From a virus, in the IMG/VR virus record IMGVR_UViG_3300046715_000073, positions 1 to 25,144 of that record: a stretch of DNA of 25,144 bases. One strand, given 5' to 3'. This document shows positions 5,763 to 24,575 of the stretch, piece after piece. Each line of letters starts with the position of its first letter. Position 1 is the stretch's first letter. The position numbers were made by a program, and so were the translations under genes. The notes beneath the pieces are model-generated. The model worked only from the letters and a program-made list of their open reading frames with translations. It made no database searches and was not told where the DNA came from.

Positions 5763-6556
5763 GCGGCCACCGCCATCTCGCCTTTGCTGCGGAGGCGGAC
5801 GACGGTCCGCTTGTGGCAGCCGAGTTCGTCGGCGATCTGCTGCGCGGTGCGGCCGGCCTTGGTGAGTTCGGCGACGCGGGCGGGGTCGGCGTACACCTTG
5901 CGACGGGCGCCCGGCTTGACCTCGGCGGCACGCTCGGTCTCCGGCTTGCAGGCCGGGTTGTCGATGTCGTCCCAGGCCAGGGGCCCGTTCCAGCCTTGTG
6001 TGCGGGCGCGGTGGATGGTGTGCGGGTTGTCGCTGCGGAAGGTCGACAGCCGCCGGTACACGGTGGCGATGGACTGCGCGGTCGGGGCGTCGATCTTCGT
6101 GTAGGTGCCGGTGATGATGCGGCCGAGCCGCCACCGGCTGATGCCGGTTTCGACGCCGACGCTGTCGAGGGTGTGGCCGAGGCAGGCGAGCGCGCGCAGG
6201 CGCCGAACTGTTCCGGTGGCGTCGACGATGTTCGGGTCGGCGGGGGGCGGCCCGATGGGGATGTTGAGGATGGCGCGGGCGCGTTCGCGGCTGATGGTGG
6301 GCTGCCCGTAGAGGACGTAGCGGACGGCGGACATGGAGACGCCGCTGGCGTCGGCGATCTGGCGGACGAGCCAGCCGTTGGCGATGAGGCGTTGGGCGTG
6401 TTCGAGGACGGGGGTGGCGTCGCGGAGTCGGCGGATGCCGCGGCTGTGGTCGAGTCGGAGGGCGCCCATGTACCGGTAGTTGGCGAGGGCGCATTCGGGG
6501 CTGCTGCAGCCTTGGAGGTGGCAGTTGCGGCTGGGCTCGTGGTCGGCGGTGGTCAC
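5759..6556 (-). CDS. DNA-binding protein with Cys module and several HTH motifs
   Basis: The 265-residue protein starts at the GTG at 6556 (GTGA overlap). Residues 12-22 hold three cysteines (C12, C17, C22) followed by ALANYRYMGALR, an N-terminal module common in actinophage regulators. At least two HTH motifs follow: ANGWLVRQIADASGVSMSAV (59-78) and the C-terminal LTKAGRTAQQIADELGCHKRTVVRL (231-255), which is resolvase-like in style. A third possible one lies at 127-150. It probably binds DNA as a regulator of the early operon. The target is unknown and no enzymatic motif is seen. Confidence 0.75.
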   Translation of the reverse strand: MTTADHEPSRNCHLQGCSSPECALANYRYMGALRLDHSRGIRRLRDATPVLEHAQRLIANGWLVRQIADASGVSMSAVRYVLYGQPTISRERARAILNIPIGPPPADPNIVDATGTVRRLRALACLGHTLDSVGVETGISRWRLGRIITGTYTKIDAPTAQSIATVYRRLSTFRSDNPHTIHRARTQGWNGPLAWDDIDNPACKPETERAAEVKPGARRKVYADPARVAELTKAGRTAQQIADELGCHKRTVVRLRSKGEMAVAA

Positions 6557-7264: not shown

Positions 7265-7755
7265 GAGGTGGCTCCGATCCGGTCGAGCAGCGGCCCCGAG
7301 TCGAGGCGGCCGTCTTCGTCTTCGAGGGCGGAGAGGCTGTGGCAGCGGGCGCACAGCTGGATCTCCTTGAACTCCATCCAGCCGTCCGGCACCCAGGAGA
7401 AGGACCACAGGGGGCGGGTCTGCAGGCAGCGTCCGCAGCGGTCCTCGGGTGGGGTGATGGACGGCTTCGGACCGCGCTCGTGCAGTGCTGCGACGGCGGC
7501 TGCGGTATCGGGGAGGACGCCGACGAGGTGCGCGGCGTGCCCGATGCACGAGTTGCACCACGACAGGCCGGCCGGGGGTTCGGCGGGGATCGGGTCGAGG
7601 ATGACGGCCGGGGACTGGGTGACACCCCAGCCGGGGGTGCCGCACAGGCCCTGCTTGCCTGCGAACTTGCCGTCCTCACGCATGACGTGGAGGCGGCGGA
7701 CCTGCTTGGCACGGCGGCCCGTGGCGGCGCTGCACCCGCGGTAGAAGGCCCTCAT
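7261..7755 (-). CDS. Cys-rich zinc-binding protein
   Basis: The 164-residue protein carries three CxxC pairs: WCNSC (about 67-70), CGRC (about 107-110) and CARC (about 135-138), plus an upstream H...LCG segment. The second and third pairs are spaced like a zinc ribbon with an aromatic core between them (LWSFSWVPDGWMEFKE). It overlaps both neighbours by 4 nt (ATGA at each end). It lies immediately downstream of the exonuclease gene, so a nucleic-acid role is possible but not shown. Confidence 0.75.
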   Translation of the reverse strand: MRAFYRGCSAATGRRAKQVRRLHVMREDGKFAGKQGLCGTPGWGVTQSPAVILDPIPAEPPAGLSWCNSCIGHAAHLVGVLPDTAAAVAALHERGPKPSITPPEDRCGRCLQTRPLWSFSWVPDGWMEFKEIQLCARCHSLSALEDEDGRLDSGPLLDRIGATS

Positions 7756-8732
7756 GACGCGGCCTCCTCGGGTGTGCCGTGCTGCTCGAGCTCGGCGTCG
7801 GTCATGAGGCCGTGCGGCGGGAGGCCGGTGCGGAGGACTTCACGGACGTCGGAGGCTGCCTCGCGGTAAGTGGCGGCGCGTTCGACCCGCGCCGACTCGG
7901 CGGGTGTGACCTCGTCGACGAACAGGCCCTCGCTCGGGTCGGGCTTCGGACCGGCCATCTGCTCCCAGCGCTCGGCGAGATCGGCGAGCAGGGTGCGCAC
8001 CTTGCGCGCTTCGGTGAGCGGCACGAGCGGCCACTCGCCATCGACCACGGCGTATGGGTCCGACTTCCGCAGGTGCTTCTGGAGTTCGCCAGCCTGTACC
8101 CGTGCCCACCAGACCTGCCAGATGTGCAGCTGCTCCGCGGGCACCTGCAGTTGCGGGAACTTCTCGCCGATCGCGGCGGCCACTTCGACGGCGGCGAGCG
8201 CGTCGGCGTCCGCGCGATGTGCGGCGGCCAGGGTGACGCCGTAGTGGACGGCGAGGGCCTCGAGCTTGCGGGAGCCCCGCCGGAACTTGTCGGCCTGCTT
8301 GTCGAGGATGAACGGGTCGATGATCGGCCCGGGTGCGGTCTCACCGCCGAGGCGCTCCTGCAGGGTGCGCAGCCCGTAGCGGCGCAGCTCGCGGTCGAGG
8401 ACGGTGAAGTCGTAGCGCCCGTTCATGGCGACGACGGGGATACCGGTGGACAGGGTCGCGGCGAGAACGTCGGCGATCTCGTCGGCAACCTGGGCGGCGG
8501 GACGGCCGTTGGCGCGGGCCTGCTCGGTGGTGACGCCGTGGACCTTGGTGGCCTCGTCGGGGATCGGGACGCCGGGGTTGGCGAGCCAGAGGCGGGACCG
8601 GTCCTGCAGTGTGTCGAGGCTGTCGCCGGGCTTCCAGTCGATGGCCGCGGCGGTGACGATGTGAGCGGTCTCGACGTTGATGCCGGTGGTCTCCAGGTCG
8701 AAGCCGAGGAGGGGTTCGGTGTGCCAGGTCAC
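7752..8732 (-). CDS. DnaQ-like 3'-5' exonuclease (DEDDh)
   Basis: The 326-residue protein's first 190 residues form a DEDDh exonuclease: FDLETTG (D12, E14), NGRYDFTVLD (D108) and AHRADADALAA (H172, D177) supply the five metal/catalytic residues. The remaining 130 residues (LHIWQVWWARVQAGELQKHLRKSDPY onward) are not part of the core fold and include a helical, acidic tail. The family removes nucleotides 3'-5' in proofreading or repair. Here it lies two genes after the Bet annealing protein, so a recombination role is plausible. The start is the GTG at 8732, coupled to the preceding gene (GTGA). Confidence 0.9.
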   Translation of the reverse strand: MTWHTEPLLGFDLETTGINVETAHIVTAAAIDWKPGDSLDTLQDRSRLWLANPGVPIPDEATKVHGVTTEQARANGRPAAQVADEIADVLAATLSTGIPVVAMNGRYDFTVLDRELRRYGLRTLQERLGGETAPGPIIDPFILDKQADKFRRGSRKLEALAVHYGVTLAAAHRADADALAAVEVAAAIGEKFPQLQVPAEQLHIWQVWWARVQAGELQKHLRKSDPYAVVDGEWPLVPLTEARKVRTLLADLAERWEQMAGPKPDPSEGLFVDEVTPAESARVERAATYREAASDVREVLRTGLPPHGLMTDAELEQHGTPEEAAS

Positions 8733-21741: not shown

Positions 21742-21776
21742 AGACCCCTGCCGACGGGGGATGACAGCAGGGGTCT
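21742..21776 (-). terminator. Hairpin terminator of the recombinase/nuclease unit
   Basis: AGACCCCTGC (21742-21751) pairs perfectly with GCAGGGGTCT (21767-21776) around a 15-nt loop, 40 nt after the GIY-YIG gene stop. It closes the two-gene unit and separates it from the next promoter. Confidence 0.65.
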
Positions 21777-21816: not shown

Positions 21817-23106
21817 TTAGCTCGTCAGCGCGTCATCGGAGTCGAATAGCACGGCAGAGTCAACGTCGATGTCCACAACATCAGGAACCTGAGGCGCTTC
21901 AGTCGCCTCGTAGAGATCGCCTACATCAACGACGATCGGCCGAGACTGTAGGCCAAGTTGCTCCGTAAACCATTCTCCCGCCAGCTCCATGGCGTCCTGG
22001 AGAGCTGCCGCGGGGAAGTACTCAACACCTCGGGTTGGTAGCCATCCTTCGCTGTCGAGTCCGTCTAGGACGGACTTTTCCAACGCTCTCGCCGCGCCGA
22101 CAGGCATCCCTTGGATCCGCAGGTGCTGCACAGTCAGTCCATCATCGGCGTGGTACCGAAGGCGGTTGTAACCGCTTCCCGAGCTGATGCCGGGCTTCAT
22201 GGTCTCCTCACCGGTCGTGACGTCCAGTCCACTTACGATGTAGTAGACGTCGTGCGGTGGGACCCCGCCGTACATCCCCCGTGGGCATTCGGGACATCCA
22301 CGCTTCACCTTGTTCGGGGTGAGGCCAAACTCGTGGCCTGCGAAGCAGACGGCCTGGTGAGCGCGTGACGCAGCTATCCATTGCGGCTCAAGAACGGTGA
22401 TGCCAAGATCCTTGGCTCTCCCTGAGAACTCCTGGAACTTGGTCAGCTTGTTGCAGGCGCCGCAGAAGTCCGACCGGATGGCTTCGCGCTCGATTCGACC
22501 GTCAACACGGAACGTGTGCAGGTGGCCGCGGCGGCACCTGATGTCGACACCGTTTCTGTATCGCTGCACGATCGTGGATCGAGTCTCGCCTACAACCGTC
22601 TCGATCTTGGCGAACCCGGCTGCGAACGAGGCGGCGGCTTGGCAGGTCGGGCACAGGATGTCGGTCCGCCCATCAGGCCGCTTCCACACGTTGAGCCCGG
22701 TCGTCTTGAAGCGGTGTCCCTTCGAGCACTTCGCCGCGAAAACGATATGCCCTTCCCCGGACTCGTCCCGCTCGTCCGAAGGTATGAGGTCCACGCCCTG
22801 CGCCGTCGCCGCCGACTTCAAAGTGGCCACGCATTCTGCAACCCAGTCAGCGTTGCGACACGTCATGCACCACGGGTAGCTAGGGTCTAGGCCGAAGGGC
22901 CTGGAGGTCGAGACGATGTCCCAGGCGGTAACGCGGAACTCATGCCCGGCGCTACATCTGGCGTCGGTCCATCCGGTCAGACCACGCTCGTGATCCAGCG
23001 TCCACCCCTGCCGCTTGCACGCCTGACGGAACAGGTCCATCAGTGCAGTGATGTGAACGGCAGCTTCCGCGCTTACGTCCCAGGGCTCCGGCTGTTCACT
23101 CGTCAC
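21817..23106 (-). CDS. Zinc-module protein with GIY-YIG-like C-terminal domain
   Basis: The 429-residue protein carries four modules of C-x3-H ... C-x2-C: C51/H55/C80/C83, C127/H131/C152/C155, C191/H195/C215/C218 and C254/H258/C271/C274. Three of the four start with C-x2-GHxF; the third reads C-x2-GHLHTF. Such repeats resemble DUF4379-type treble-clef zinc modules often fused to nucleases. Residues 285-365 then read DVYYIVSG...MKPGISS...NRLRYHAD...LEKSVLDGL...RGVEYFP, fitting a GIY-YIG fold (YYI, KPGIS, R316, E343). The C-terminus is acidic. The GTG at 23106 overlaps the recombinase stop (GTGA). Codon use looks less GC-biased than most neighbours, suggesting recent arrival. DNA cleavage is inferred. 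Confidence 0.7.
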   Translation of the reverse strand: MTSEQPEPWDVSAEAAVHITALMDLFRQACKRQGWTLDHERGLTGWTDARCSAGHEFRVTAWDIVSTSRPFGLDPSYPWCMTCRNADWVAECVATLKSAATAQGVDLIPSDERDESGEGHIVFAAKCSKGHRFKTTGLNVWKRPDGRTDILCPTCQAAASFAAGFAKIETVVGETRSTIVQRYRNGVDIRCRRGHLHTFRVDGRIEREAIRSDFCGACNKLTKFQEFSGRAKDLGITVLEPQWIAASRAHQAVCFAGHEFGLTPNKVKRGCPECPRGMYGGVPPHDVYYIVSGLDVTTGEETMKPGISSGSGYNRLRYHADDGLTVQHLRIQGMPVGAARALEKSVLDGLDSEGWLPTRGVEYFPAAALQDAMELAGEWFTEQLGLQSRPIVVDVGDLYEATEAPQVPDVVDIDVDSAVLFDSDDALTS

Positions 23107-23672
23107 GCGCGCTCCAGGTGACGGTAGATGGTCGGCCTGCTGACGCCGAACTCGTCGGCGATCTGCTGCACGGTGTACTTACGCTTACCGTCCGTGCCGG
23201 TCTCGTCGTACATCTCCTGCGCGAGCTTGATCTGGCGGGCCTTGAGCTTCGGCTTCTGTCCGCCGGTGCGTCCGCGAGCGCGAGCGGCTTCTAGGCCCTG
23301 CTTGGTGCGTTCGACCATGAGGCTGTGCTCGAACTCGGCGACGGCGCCCAGGATGTGAAAGAACATCTGACCCACGGGGGTCGACGTGTCGATGCCTTGG
23401 TCAAGGACGACGAGCTGGACGCCGCGCGCGCGGAGGTCGTCGCCGATGTCCATGAGGTTGCGGAGGGACCGGCCGAGGCGGTCGAGTTTGGTGATGACGA
23501 GGTAGTCGCCTTCTCGCACGGCGACGAGCGCCTTGTCCAGTTCGGGCCGTGAGGCGAGCTTGCCGCTGAGCTTATCGACGAAGATCTGGTCGCACTTGGC
23601 GTCGGTGAGTGCGTCGCGCTGGGCTTCAGGGTGTTGGTCGGAGGTGGACACGCGTCCGTAGCCGATTCGCAT
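23103..23672 (-). CDS. Serine recombinase (resolvase/invertase family)
   Basis: The 189-residue protein starts MRIGYGRVSTSDQHPEAQRD with the nucleophile Ser9, followed by KLSGKLASRPELDKALVAVREGDYLVITKLDRLGRSLRNL (the family's R-rich active-site segment), an E helix (EFEHSLMVERTKQGLEAARARGR) and a C-terminal HTH (YTVQQIADEFGVSRPTIYRHLE). It is full length for a Hin/Tn3-type enzyme. These proteins recombine two short DNA sites. It is transcribed first and coupled to the GIY-YIG-like gene. The ATG at 23672 has only a poorly placed GAGG and a TACACT five bases upstream. Confidence 0.95.
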   Translation of the reverse strand: MRIGYGRVSTSDQHPEAQRDALTDAKCDQIFVDKLSGKLASRPELDKALVAVREGDYLVITKLDRLGRSLRNLMDIGDDLRARGVQLVVLDQGIDTSTPVGQMFFHILGAVAEFEHSLMVERTKQGLEAARARGRTGGQKPKLKARQIKLAQEMYDETGTDGKRKYTVQQIADEFGVSRPTIYRHLERA

Positions 23673-23799
23673 GCCTCAGTGTATCGGGAACGGGGGAGAT
23701 CATTACATAGATGCGGACACGGGTTGCGTAACAACAACGTCCCAGCGTGGGGGTGTTGAAGCGGAGTGAATCACAGACGTTCGTTTGCGGACACAGCAG

Positions 23800-23833
23800 A
23801 ACGCCCCCGCTACCCGAAGGCAGCGGGGGCGTT
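23800..23833 (-). terminator. Terminator of the lysis-type operon
   Basis: AACGCCCCCGCT (23800-23811) pairs perfectly with AGCGGGGGCGTT (23822-23833) around a 10-nt loop, ten bases after the stop of the tiny proline-rich gene. Stem strength suggests it stops the minus-strand operon. Confidence 0.7.
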
Positions 23834-23954: not shown

Positions 23955-24575
23955 CTACACGTACTGACGGCGGCTGGGGTCGAGTCCGGCAGCCTGCGGG
24001 GACGGGCTGTCACTGCCCCCAGGATCCGGCGCACCATCCTTGCGGCAGACGAGAGCATCCGGGTCCCAGCTCGGGGCCTGCAGCGAGTAGCCGTCAGGGC
24101 AGGTCTGGCCGTCCTTGCCGTCGGCGCCGTCACGTCCGTCCGTACCGTCCTGGCCTGCCGGGCCGGCGGGGCCTGGCTCGCCCTGAGGTCCTTCCGGCCC
24201 GGTCGGTCCGACTGCTCCTGGGCTCCCAGTCGCCCCGGGGCTTCCGGCGGCACCAGCCTTTCCCGGCGAGCCCGGTGTGCCGGGACTCCCCGACGGGCCT
24301 GGCTCGCCGCTCGCACCGCGTGGGCCGCGCGGTCCGACGATGGACTGGCCCGTCTCGCCGCGGCTTCCTGGCGGCCCAGCGACCGGTTTCCCGCCGAGTT
24401 TCTGCACCTGTGCGGCCAGAAGATCGCGGGCTTCGTTCGCGGTGCGCAGGTCGTGGGAGAGCTGCTGCATGGTGATGACGACCCAGGCGAGCAGTGCGAG
24501 TGCGGCCACGGATCCGATGGCGAACCACACGTCGGCCCGGCGGCGCATCGTGGCCCGGGAGCTGTGAGCACTCAC
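23955..24575 (-). CDS. Membrane-anchored collagen-like protein
   Basis: The product is 206 residues: a short basic N-terminus, a membrane segment ([20 protein letters not shown], about 16-35), a coiled-coil neck ([24 protein letters not shown]), then about 90 residues of Gly-X-Y repeats ([12 protein letters not shown] through GKDGQ), and a small C-terminal domain with two cysteines ([19 protein letters not shown]). It would form a trimer with the collagen rod outside the cytoplasm. Collagen-like proteins occur in phage tails and near lysis genes; a spanin-like role is only a guess. The GTG at 24575 overlaps the preceding stop. Confidence 0.85.

Follow-up and report, generated by a model that had tools for sequence, protein, structure and literature searches.

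A serine resolvase locus with an exchangeable, overlapping nuclease-like gene in Streptomyces-type temperate phages

The window, by which we mean the whole stretch of DNA analysed, is an IMG/VR record of 25,144 bp. Its genes are those of the early region in a temperate phage of the Streptomyces type, and encode DnaB, a replication initiator, an exonuclease, RecT, a clamp-like protein, a tyrosine integrase and an HTH regulator. On the minus strand, a collagen-like gene (23955-24575) is followed by the gene for a small serine recombinase, termed P0002, and then by the gene for a 429-residue protein, termed P0001. From sequence comparison, the phage appears to be far from isolated phages: a megablast search with positions 1-25000 of the window found zero matches among 50,697 phage records, and Streptomyces plasmids gave short matches in the DnaB region only. 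Loci for comparison were collected by seed-pattern scans of viral contigs and plasmid records, and the completeness of these contigs varies. Because the loci were found by seed patterns, their frequencies describe a biased sample, which supports the existence of the architecture described below rather than its frequency. A Streptomyces host is named for the plasmid record and for distant phage relatives, and is presumed for the IMG/VR contigs. The features of the locus are as follows.

21742-21776, minus strand: hairpin after P0001, possible terminator of the unit (dG -25.2 kcal/mol, z -4.0)
21817-23106, minus strand: P0001, zinc-module array plus predicted GIY-YIG-like nuclease, 429 aa (translation, invariant motifs, fold model, viral structure matches, PHROG endonucleases)
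21967-22254, minus strand: GIY-YIG-like catalytic domain of P0001, residues 285-380 (invariant residues, AF2 pLDDT 83)
22285-22347, minus strand: zinc module 4, C254/H258/C271/C274 (invariant C/H/C/C)
22453-22536, minus strand: zinc module 3, C191/H195/C215/C218 (invariant C/H/C/C)
22642-22728, minus strand: zinc module 2, C127/H131/C152/C155 (invariant C/H/C/C)
22858-22956, minus strand: zinc module 1, C51/H55/C80/C83 (invariant C/H/C/C)
23103-23106, minus strand: GTGA stop/start overlap of P0002 and P0001, also the similarity breakpoint between loci with different cargo
23103-23672, minus strand: P0002, small serine recombinase of the resolvase type, 189 aa (PF00239, C-terminal HTH_7, invariant catalytic residues)
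23673-23794, minus strand: res-like block upstream of the resolvase gene, ~120 bp with three sub-blocks (conserved at an equal distance in 15 P0002-type loci)
23673-23735, minus strand: putative accessory sub-sites II/III, GTTGTTACGCAACCCGTGTCCGCATCTATGTAAT and TGTAATGATCTCCCCCGTTCCCGATACA (from conservation)
23768-23794, minus strand: putative crossover site I, with the core CGCAAACGAACGTCTGTG (23772-23789; from a pattern scan of 17 records)
23800-23833, minus strand: hairpin ahead of the resolvase module that may terminate the collagen-like/lysis operon before it (dG -33.3 kcal/mol, z -6.3)

Both open reading frames and their GTGA overlap are present as described in an earlier, sequence-only reading of this DNA. 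That reading also recognized a 429-residue partner with four zinc modules and a GIY-YIG-like domain, and here the motifs, the fold model and the structural matches agree with it. The four modules of P0001 have the form C-x2-G-H...C-x2-C, and all of their C/H/C/C residues are invariant among seven homologues. The GIY-YIG core residues Y289, K304-x-G306, R315, E343 and E362-Y363 are invariant across 13 diverse sequences. A full-length AlphaFold model was discarded (pLDDT 40), and we used an AF2 model that spans zinc module 4 and the C-terminal domain, which reaches pLDDT 83 and has a beta-beta-alpha-beta-alpha topology. This domain model matches viral structures annotated as T5orf172, CapR-homology, zinc-ribbon or Hef-like homing endonuclease proteins (best E 2.5e-7). 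A Foldseek search against the PDB returned nothing significant, and in a Pfam search neither the GIY-YIG nor the T5orf172 (PF10544) profile matched, nor did the CapR profile. Profile libraries hardly detect P0001, which matches two endonuclease families, phrog_559 (4.9e-5) and phrog_681 (4.7e-4), plus a sub-threshold zinc ribbon. Its relatives are under purifying selection (dN/dS about 0.2).

Zinc-array T5orf172 homing genes have been described, as have homing endonuclease gene loci that tolerate different nucleases (PMC10448857). The arrangement of P0001, with N-terminal zinc modules followed by a GIY-YIG-like domain, resembles that of T5orf172 proteins with CapR/DUF723/DUF4379 arrays. One of these, gp053 of Vibrio phage ICP1, consists by Pfam of three CapR domains plus T5orf172 and so has the same domain order, and a direct hhalign comparison of the two proteins is weak (E 0.028; HNH controls 0.28 and 0.82). 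P0001 is likewise a free-standing phage gene whose relatives vary in module number: other Streptomyces phages and plasmids contain distant relatives that share its C-terminus and have two to seven zinc modules. Two of these match phrog_681 strongly (9e-35 and 4e-25), and one of the relatives, L080, matches the CapR zinc domain at 2.5e-17. Unlike the T5orf172/CapR systems, P0001 itself matches neither profile, and its homing is putative. The zinc-array GIY-YIG homing endonucleases of Barth et al. (PMC10448857) are the most likely model for how P0001 works; it would have a DNA target that it cuts. In one relative (L003:4768-6480, CP108805.1), only a 164-aa coding sequence is annotated (5986-6480), and the open frame extends over 570 codons with seven zinc modules and a GIY-YIG domain.

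The serine recombinase is complete and has the Ser9 that the sequence-only reading had pointed out. P0002 matches PF00239 (E=5.6e-44) and, at its C-terminal residues 139-186, HTH_7 (7.3e-7), and Ser9, Arg7, Arg42, Arg65 and Arg68 are invariant among 13 homologues. Its nearest solved structures are DNA invertases and gamma-delta/Tn3 resolvases. Each record tested contains exactly one PF00239 gene, which is the recombinase at this locus. In almost every pairwise comparison, the conserved module has the res-like block at its left edge; the block is defined by conservation and one clear palindrome. This palindrome is the outermost sub-block, a dyad that is near-perfect, and clear, in L018 only (TCACGAACGATCGTTCGTGA). 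A site-I-like sequence is found in one copy per genome wherever the P0002-type module occurs (17 records scanned, several incomplete). The combination of three conserved sub-blocks with a single outermost dyad per genome agrees with a res site used in resolution and not with the paired sites of an invertase.

In principle, P0002 could instead be a DNA invertase that acts with a regulator to switch tail or lysis genes. Its top PHROG match is the DNA invertase family phrog_125, and invertase structures are among the closest. Such a role is nevertheless highly improbable, as only one site-I-like sequence is present per genome and an inverted partner site was not found at the sensitivity used (some records are incomplete); a tail-gene invertase in particular is disfavoured by the single site. 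We conclude that P0002 is a small serine resolvase, which may carry out resolution at the res-like block. It resembles the Tn3/gamma-delta resolvases in catalytic domain, C-terminal HTH, size and the ~120-bp region of three sub-blocks directly upstream. Unlike theirs, its locus has no transposase, a single site per phage genome and a swappable nuclease-type gene overlapping its 3' end.

An overlap between a recombinase gene and a nuclease gene is also a feature of IS607-type elements (serine recombinase plus TnpB), to which the sequence-only reading had compared the pair. This comparison fails: the DNA-binding HTH of P0002 is C-terminal, a res-like block lies upstream of the recombinase gene, the partner is not TnpB, and element ends are absent. 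An IS607-like element was therefore rejected.

Overlaps of 4 bp are common in the window (for example 8729-9553/7752-8732, 14154/14468/14737 and 23955/24572). Coupling is nonetheless strongly enriched after these resolvases. For 31 of 46 resolvases, counted over non-duplicate loci, the following gene begins within the resolvase stop codon (NTGA), versus 63 of 450 other genes (p=2e-14, with tips that are not fully independent). The pair had also been credited with its own terminator at 21742-21776 and with a looser codon bias than its neighbours. A strong hairpin does lie there, but a terminator scan found no T-run at this hairpin or at the one at 23800-23833, so that the word terminator is provisional for both. 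The claim about codon bias is only partly right, with a GC3 of 0.73 for P0001 and 0.86 for P0002.

P0001 homologues were found in ten further records, and all eleven, including the window, adjoin a serine recombinase gene. Nine of them overlap an upstream small serine recombinase gene by 4 bp. In four cases (window, L014, L015 and L019), this recombinase is of the P0002 type; in the other five (L006, L007, L023, L025 and L026), it belongs to a second type (37-40% identical). The remaining two homologues (L002 and L008) have a third kind of serine recombinase ~43 bp downstream. Distant zinc-array GIY-YIG relatives lack a serine recombinase within about 6 kb; thus, the association belongs to the P0001 subfamily. 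The homologue loci bear out the expectation that the coupled pair recurs with boundaries independent of its surroundings. As to whether the pair travels alone, it is seen only in Streptomyces-type (pro)phages and phage-plasmids, at a locus after the lysis genes. Seed-pattern scans of GTDB genome contigs gave no relatives, a result that reflects the seed patterns and does not prove absence.

Two of these loci have features of their own. L002 lies on CP108822.1, an S. chartreusis plasmid of 88.6 kb with phage tail and amidase genes, weak ParA/ParB and no tyrosine integrase, and is apparently part of a phage-plasmid that carries a P0001 homologue. In L019 (6567-9295), a mutator-family (IS256-type) transposase gene (7470-8723, minus strand) interrupts the GIY-YIG gene, which amounts to a natural knock-out.

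We surveyed 47 resolvase loci, 16 of the P0002 type and 31 of the second type, for the gene that occupies the position, or slot, after the resolvase. The cargo includes GIY-YIG genes (9 loci), EndoVII genes (7), HNH genes (5), macro-domain genes (2), HTH genes and unknowns. For EndoVII, 7 of 11 copies in 37 records are in the slot, and for HNH 5 of 31, with 26 of 31 outside it. Cargo changes at least 24 times on the 47-tip resolvase tree, the tips of which are not independent. The tree sister of the window resolvase, which carries GIY-YIG, is L010, which carries EndoVII, and the two resolvases are 96% identical; L028 (GIY-YIG) and L029 (EndoVII) are likewise sisters. Many resolvases of both types have a slot without a nuclease gene, or with a macro-domain or HTH gene. 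A fixed resolvase plus GIY-YIG pair is ruled out by this cargo turnover. The single cassette proposed at the outset is replaced by a resolvase that more often carries other genes and a GIY-YIG gene that occurs with three recombinases. Among the loci compared, we found no clean pair of an empty and an occupied slot in which both flanks are conserved. The macro-domain cargo of L016 and L017 (6567-7049; phrog_335, with weak similarity to the DarG antitoxin) begins with the same 4-bp overlap.

The breakpoints of similarity follow the same division. Loci of the P0002 type share a single block that begins at site I and ends with the resolvase stop codon; their flanks are unrelated, and similarity extends past that stop only where the cargo or flanks are also common to both loci. 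The nuclease block starts at the nuclease start codon. By these comparisons, the resolvase with its ~120-bp res-like block is one exchange unit, and the nuclease gene another. The 3' ends of the two resolvase types found beside GIY-YIG genes have no detectable common sequence. Therefore, the cut site is not simply that end, and a nuclease with a single fixed target there could not account for every insertion.

One exchange can be followed in detail. Rightwards from about +450 of the GIY-YIG gene, the DNA of L015 matches that of L023 at essentially 100% identity over most of 2.3 kb. Identity is 70-73% in the first ~300 bp of the gene, the resolvase module is of a wholly different type, and identity returns to 85-95% further left of it. 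This pattern indicates that the resolvase and the 5' part of the nuclease gene were replaced as a block, one end of which lies inside the nuclease gene. The mark is as left by recombination at the nuclease gene, and homologous recombination without cleavage leaves the same mark.

Ordinary phage mosaicism is one alternative. A tightly packed operon that closes the lysis region might take up any accessory gene, with nucleases merely frequent among phage genes. The many 4-bp overlaps in the window phage, the HNH genes that mostly lie elsewhere and the non-nucleases in the slot all agree with this explanation. We consider it unlikely in view of the excess of coupling after resolvases, the concentration of EndoVII copies at one position, and the contrast between P0001 homologues, all beside a serine recombinase, and their distant relatives, none of which has one within about 6 kb.

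Alternatively, nuclease and resolvase could be functional partners in one DNA-processing pathway that trims or resolves branched or multimeric phage DNA, so that the nuclease families are equivalent and are selected rather than selfish. Consistent with this proposal, the GIY-YIG gene keeps its overlap with two unrelated resolvase types, P0001 relatives are under purifying selection, and coupling is enriched after resolvases. In addition, the EndoVII proteins of the slot are related to a Holliday-junction resolving enzyme (PMC6083498). However, many resolvases of both types do without a nuclease in the slot, the L019 gene is disrupted by a transposase gene, and rapid cargo turnover is more in keeping with selfish or niche genes than with a partner that is required. 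We therefore hold a partnership to be about as doubtful as mosaicism.

Variable accessory genes beside lysis genes are often involved in superinfection control. The pair might in this respect be an anti-phage or phage-phage exclusion cassette, in which the nuclease attacks competing phages and the resolvase is accessory; zinc-array nucleases can act in phage-satellite conflict (PMC10448857). The sequence-only reading had likewise raised the prospect of a defence cassette, and we see no defence signal: PADLOC models contain no family that matches P0001, and P0002 matches at the HTH level only. Also, within the collections scanned the pair does not occur on its own outside phages, and nothing ties its expression to the lysogenic state. 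This leaves an exclusion role improbable, more so than a partnership.

We favour the reading, with a probability of roughly 0.55, that temperate phages and phage-plasmids of Streptomyces have a "resolvase plus plug-in nuclease" locus, that the pair is one of its fillings, and that a homing-type nuclease gene is swapped there by cleavage and repair. A resolvase locus that serves homing-type nucleases as a landing point is the simplest mechanism. P0002 would act on the one res-like site directly ahead of the P0002 gene, most probably to resolve dimers or cointegrates of phage DNA. P0001 would be translated from the P0002 transcript via the GTGA overlap. Its zinc-module array would bind DNA and its GIY-YIG domain would cut, in the manner of free-standing T5orf172/CapR homing endonucleases such as that of ICP1. 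Breaks made by the nuclease would be repaired by phage recombination, for which the window encodes RecT and an exonuclease, and repair would drive copying and replacement of the nuclease gene along with adjoining resolvase DNA. Cleavage-driven replacement of this kind would explain why GIY-YIG, EndoVII and HNH genes are swapped at an exact junction and the resolvase and its site stay in place. All three families have known homing members (PMC10448857; PMC6083498).

Some observations sit less easily with the plug-in nuclease reading. Its weak point is that the resolvases beside GIY-YIG genes have unrelated 3' ends. The non-nucleases in the slot (macro domain, HTH and unknowns) count against homing, as do the missing empty/occupied pair, the lack of a Pfam GIY-YIG or T5orf172 match and the weak hhalign score with ICP1 gp053. 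Because several of these phages carry a tyrosine integrase, the need for dimer resolution is not obvious. Multimer resolution of phage-plasmids as the role of all members was rejected. ParA/ParB is weak in the S. chartreusis plasmid, ParB is present in the L011 record, and many records have tyrosine integrases; with ParA/ParB so sparse and tyrosine integrases so many, such a role cannot be general.

The serine resolvase beside P0001 is a neighbourhood not mentioned for zinc-array T5orf172 genes in the available text of PMC10448857. EndoVII-type homing endonucleases form a known family (PMC6083498), and the EndoVII fold of its member F-CphI is the second commonest filling of the slot; F-CphI is tied to an intron target, whereas the slot EndoVII copies are not known to act in homing. 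Literature searches on serine recombinases with GIY-YIG proteins, Streptomyces phage resolvases with HNH proteins, and resolvase genes with homing endonucleases found no description of this architecture in titles or abstracts. A bolder proposal is a two-gene exchange system, in which the resolvase and res site are the conserved anchor and the coupled, interchangeable homing nuclease is the driver. The locus would then be a dedicated landing and swapping point for three unrelated nuclease families, and both enzymes together would move DNA between otherwise unrelated Streptomyces phages. We offer this proposal very tentatively, with only slightly more confidence than we give to mosaicism or partnership.

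Phage genomes are mosaics, and the machinery that sets their joints is mostly unknown. Here a joint is defined to the codon, where the resolvase stop overlaps the start of a repeatedly replaced nuclease-type gene. If cleavage drives the swapping, homing endonucleases would be linked to a specific recombinase neighbour in a compact, testable system. Should cleavage play no such part, the locus is still recognizable and can help to annotate homing-type nucleases in the phages of Streptomyces, a genus of importance for antibiotics.

Further genes occur near the slot. Just after the GIY-YIG gene of L015, positions 8013-8681 encode a protein with a hydrophobic start that is GmrSD_C/HNH-like and, judged by this similarity, appears to be a second nuclease-like gene product at the locus; related genes are present in L006 and L007. 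In three phages, a Ku (NHEJ) gene is found a short way downstream of the slot (L011:6821-7921, L014:8527-9426 and L019:10422-11714; PF02735 about 1e-40), and in L011 it follows a resolvase gene without coupled cargo.
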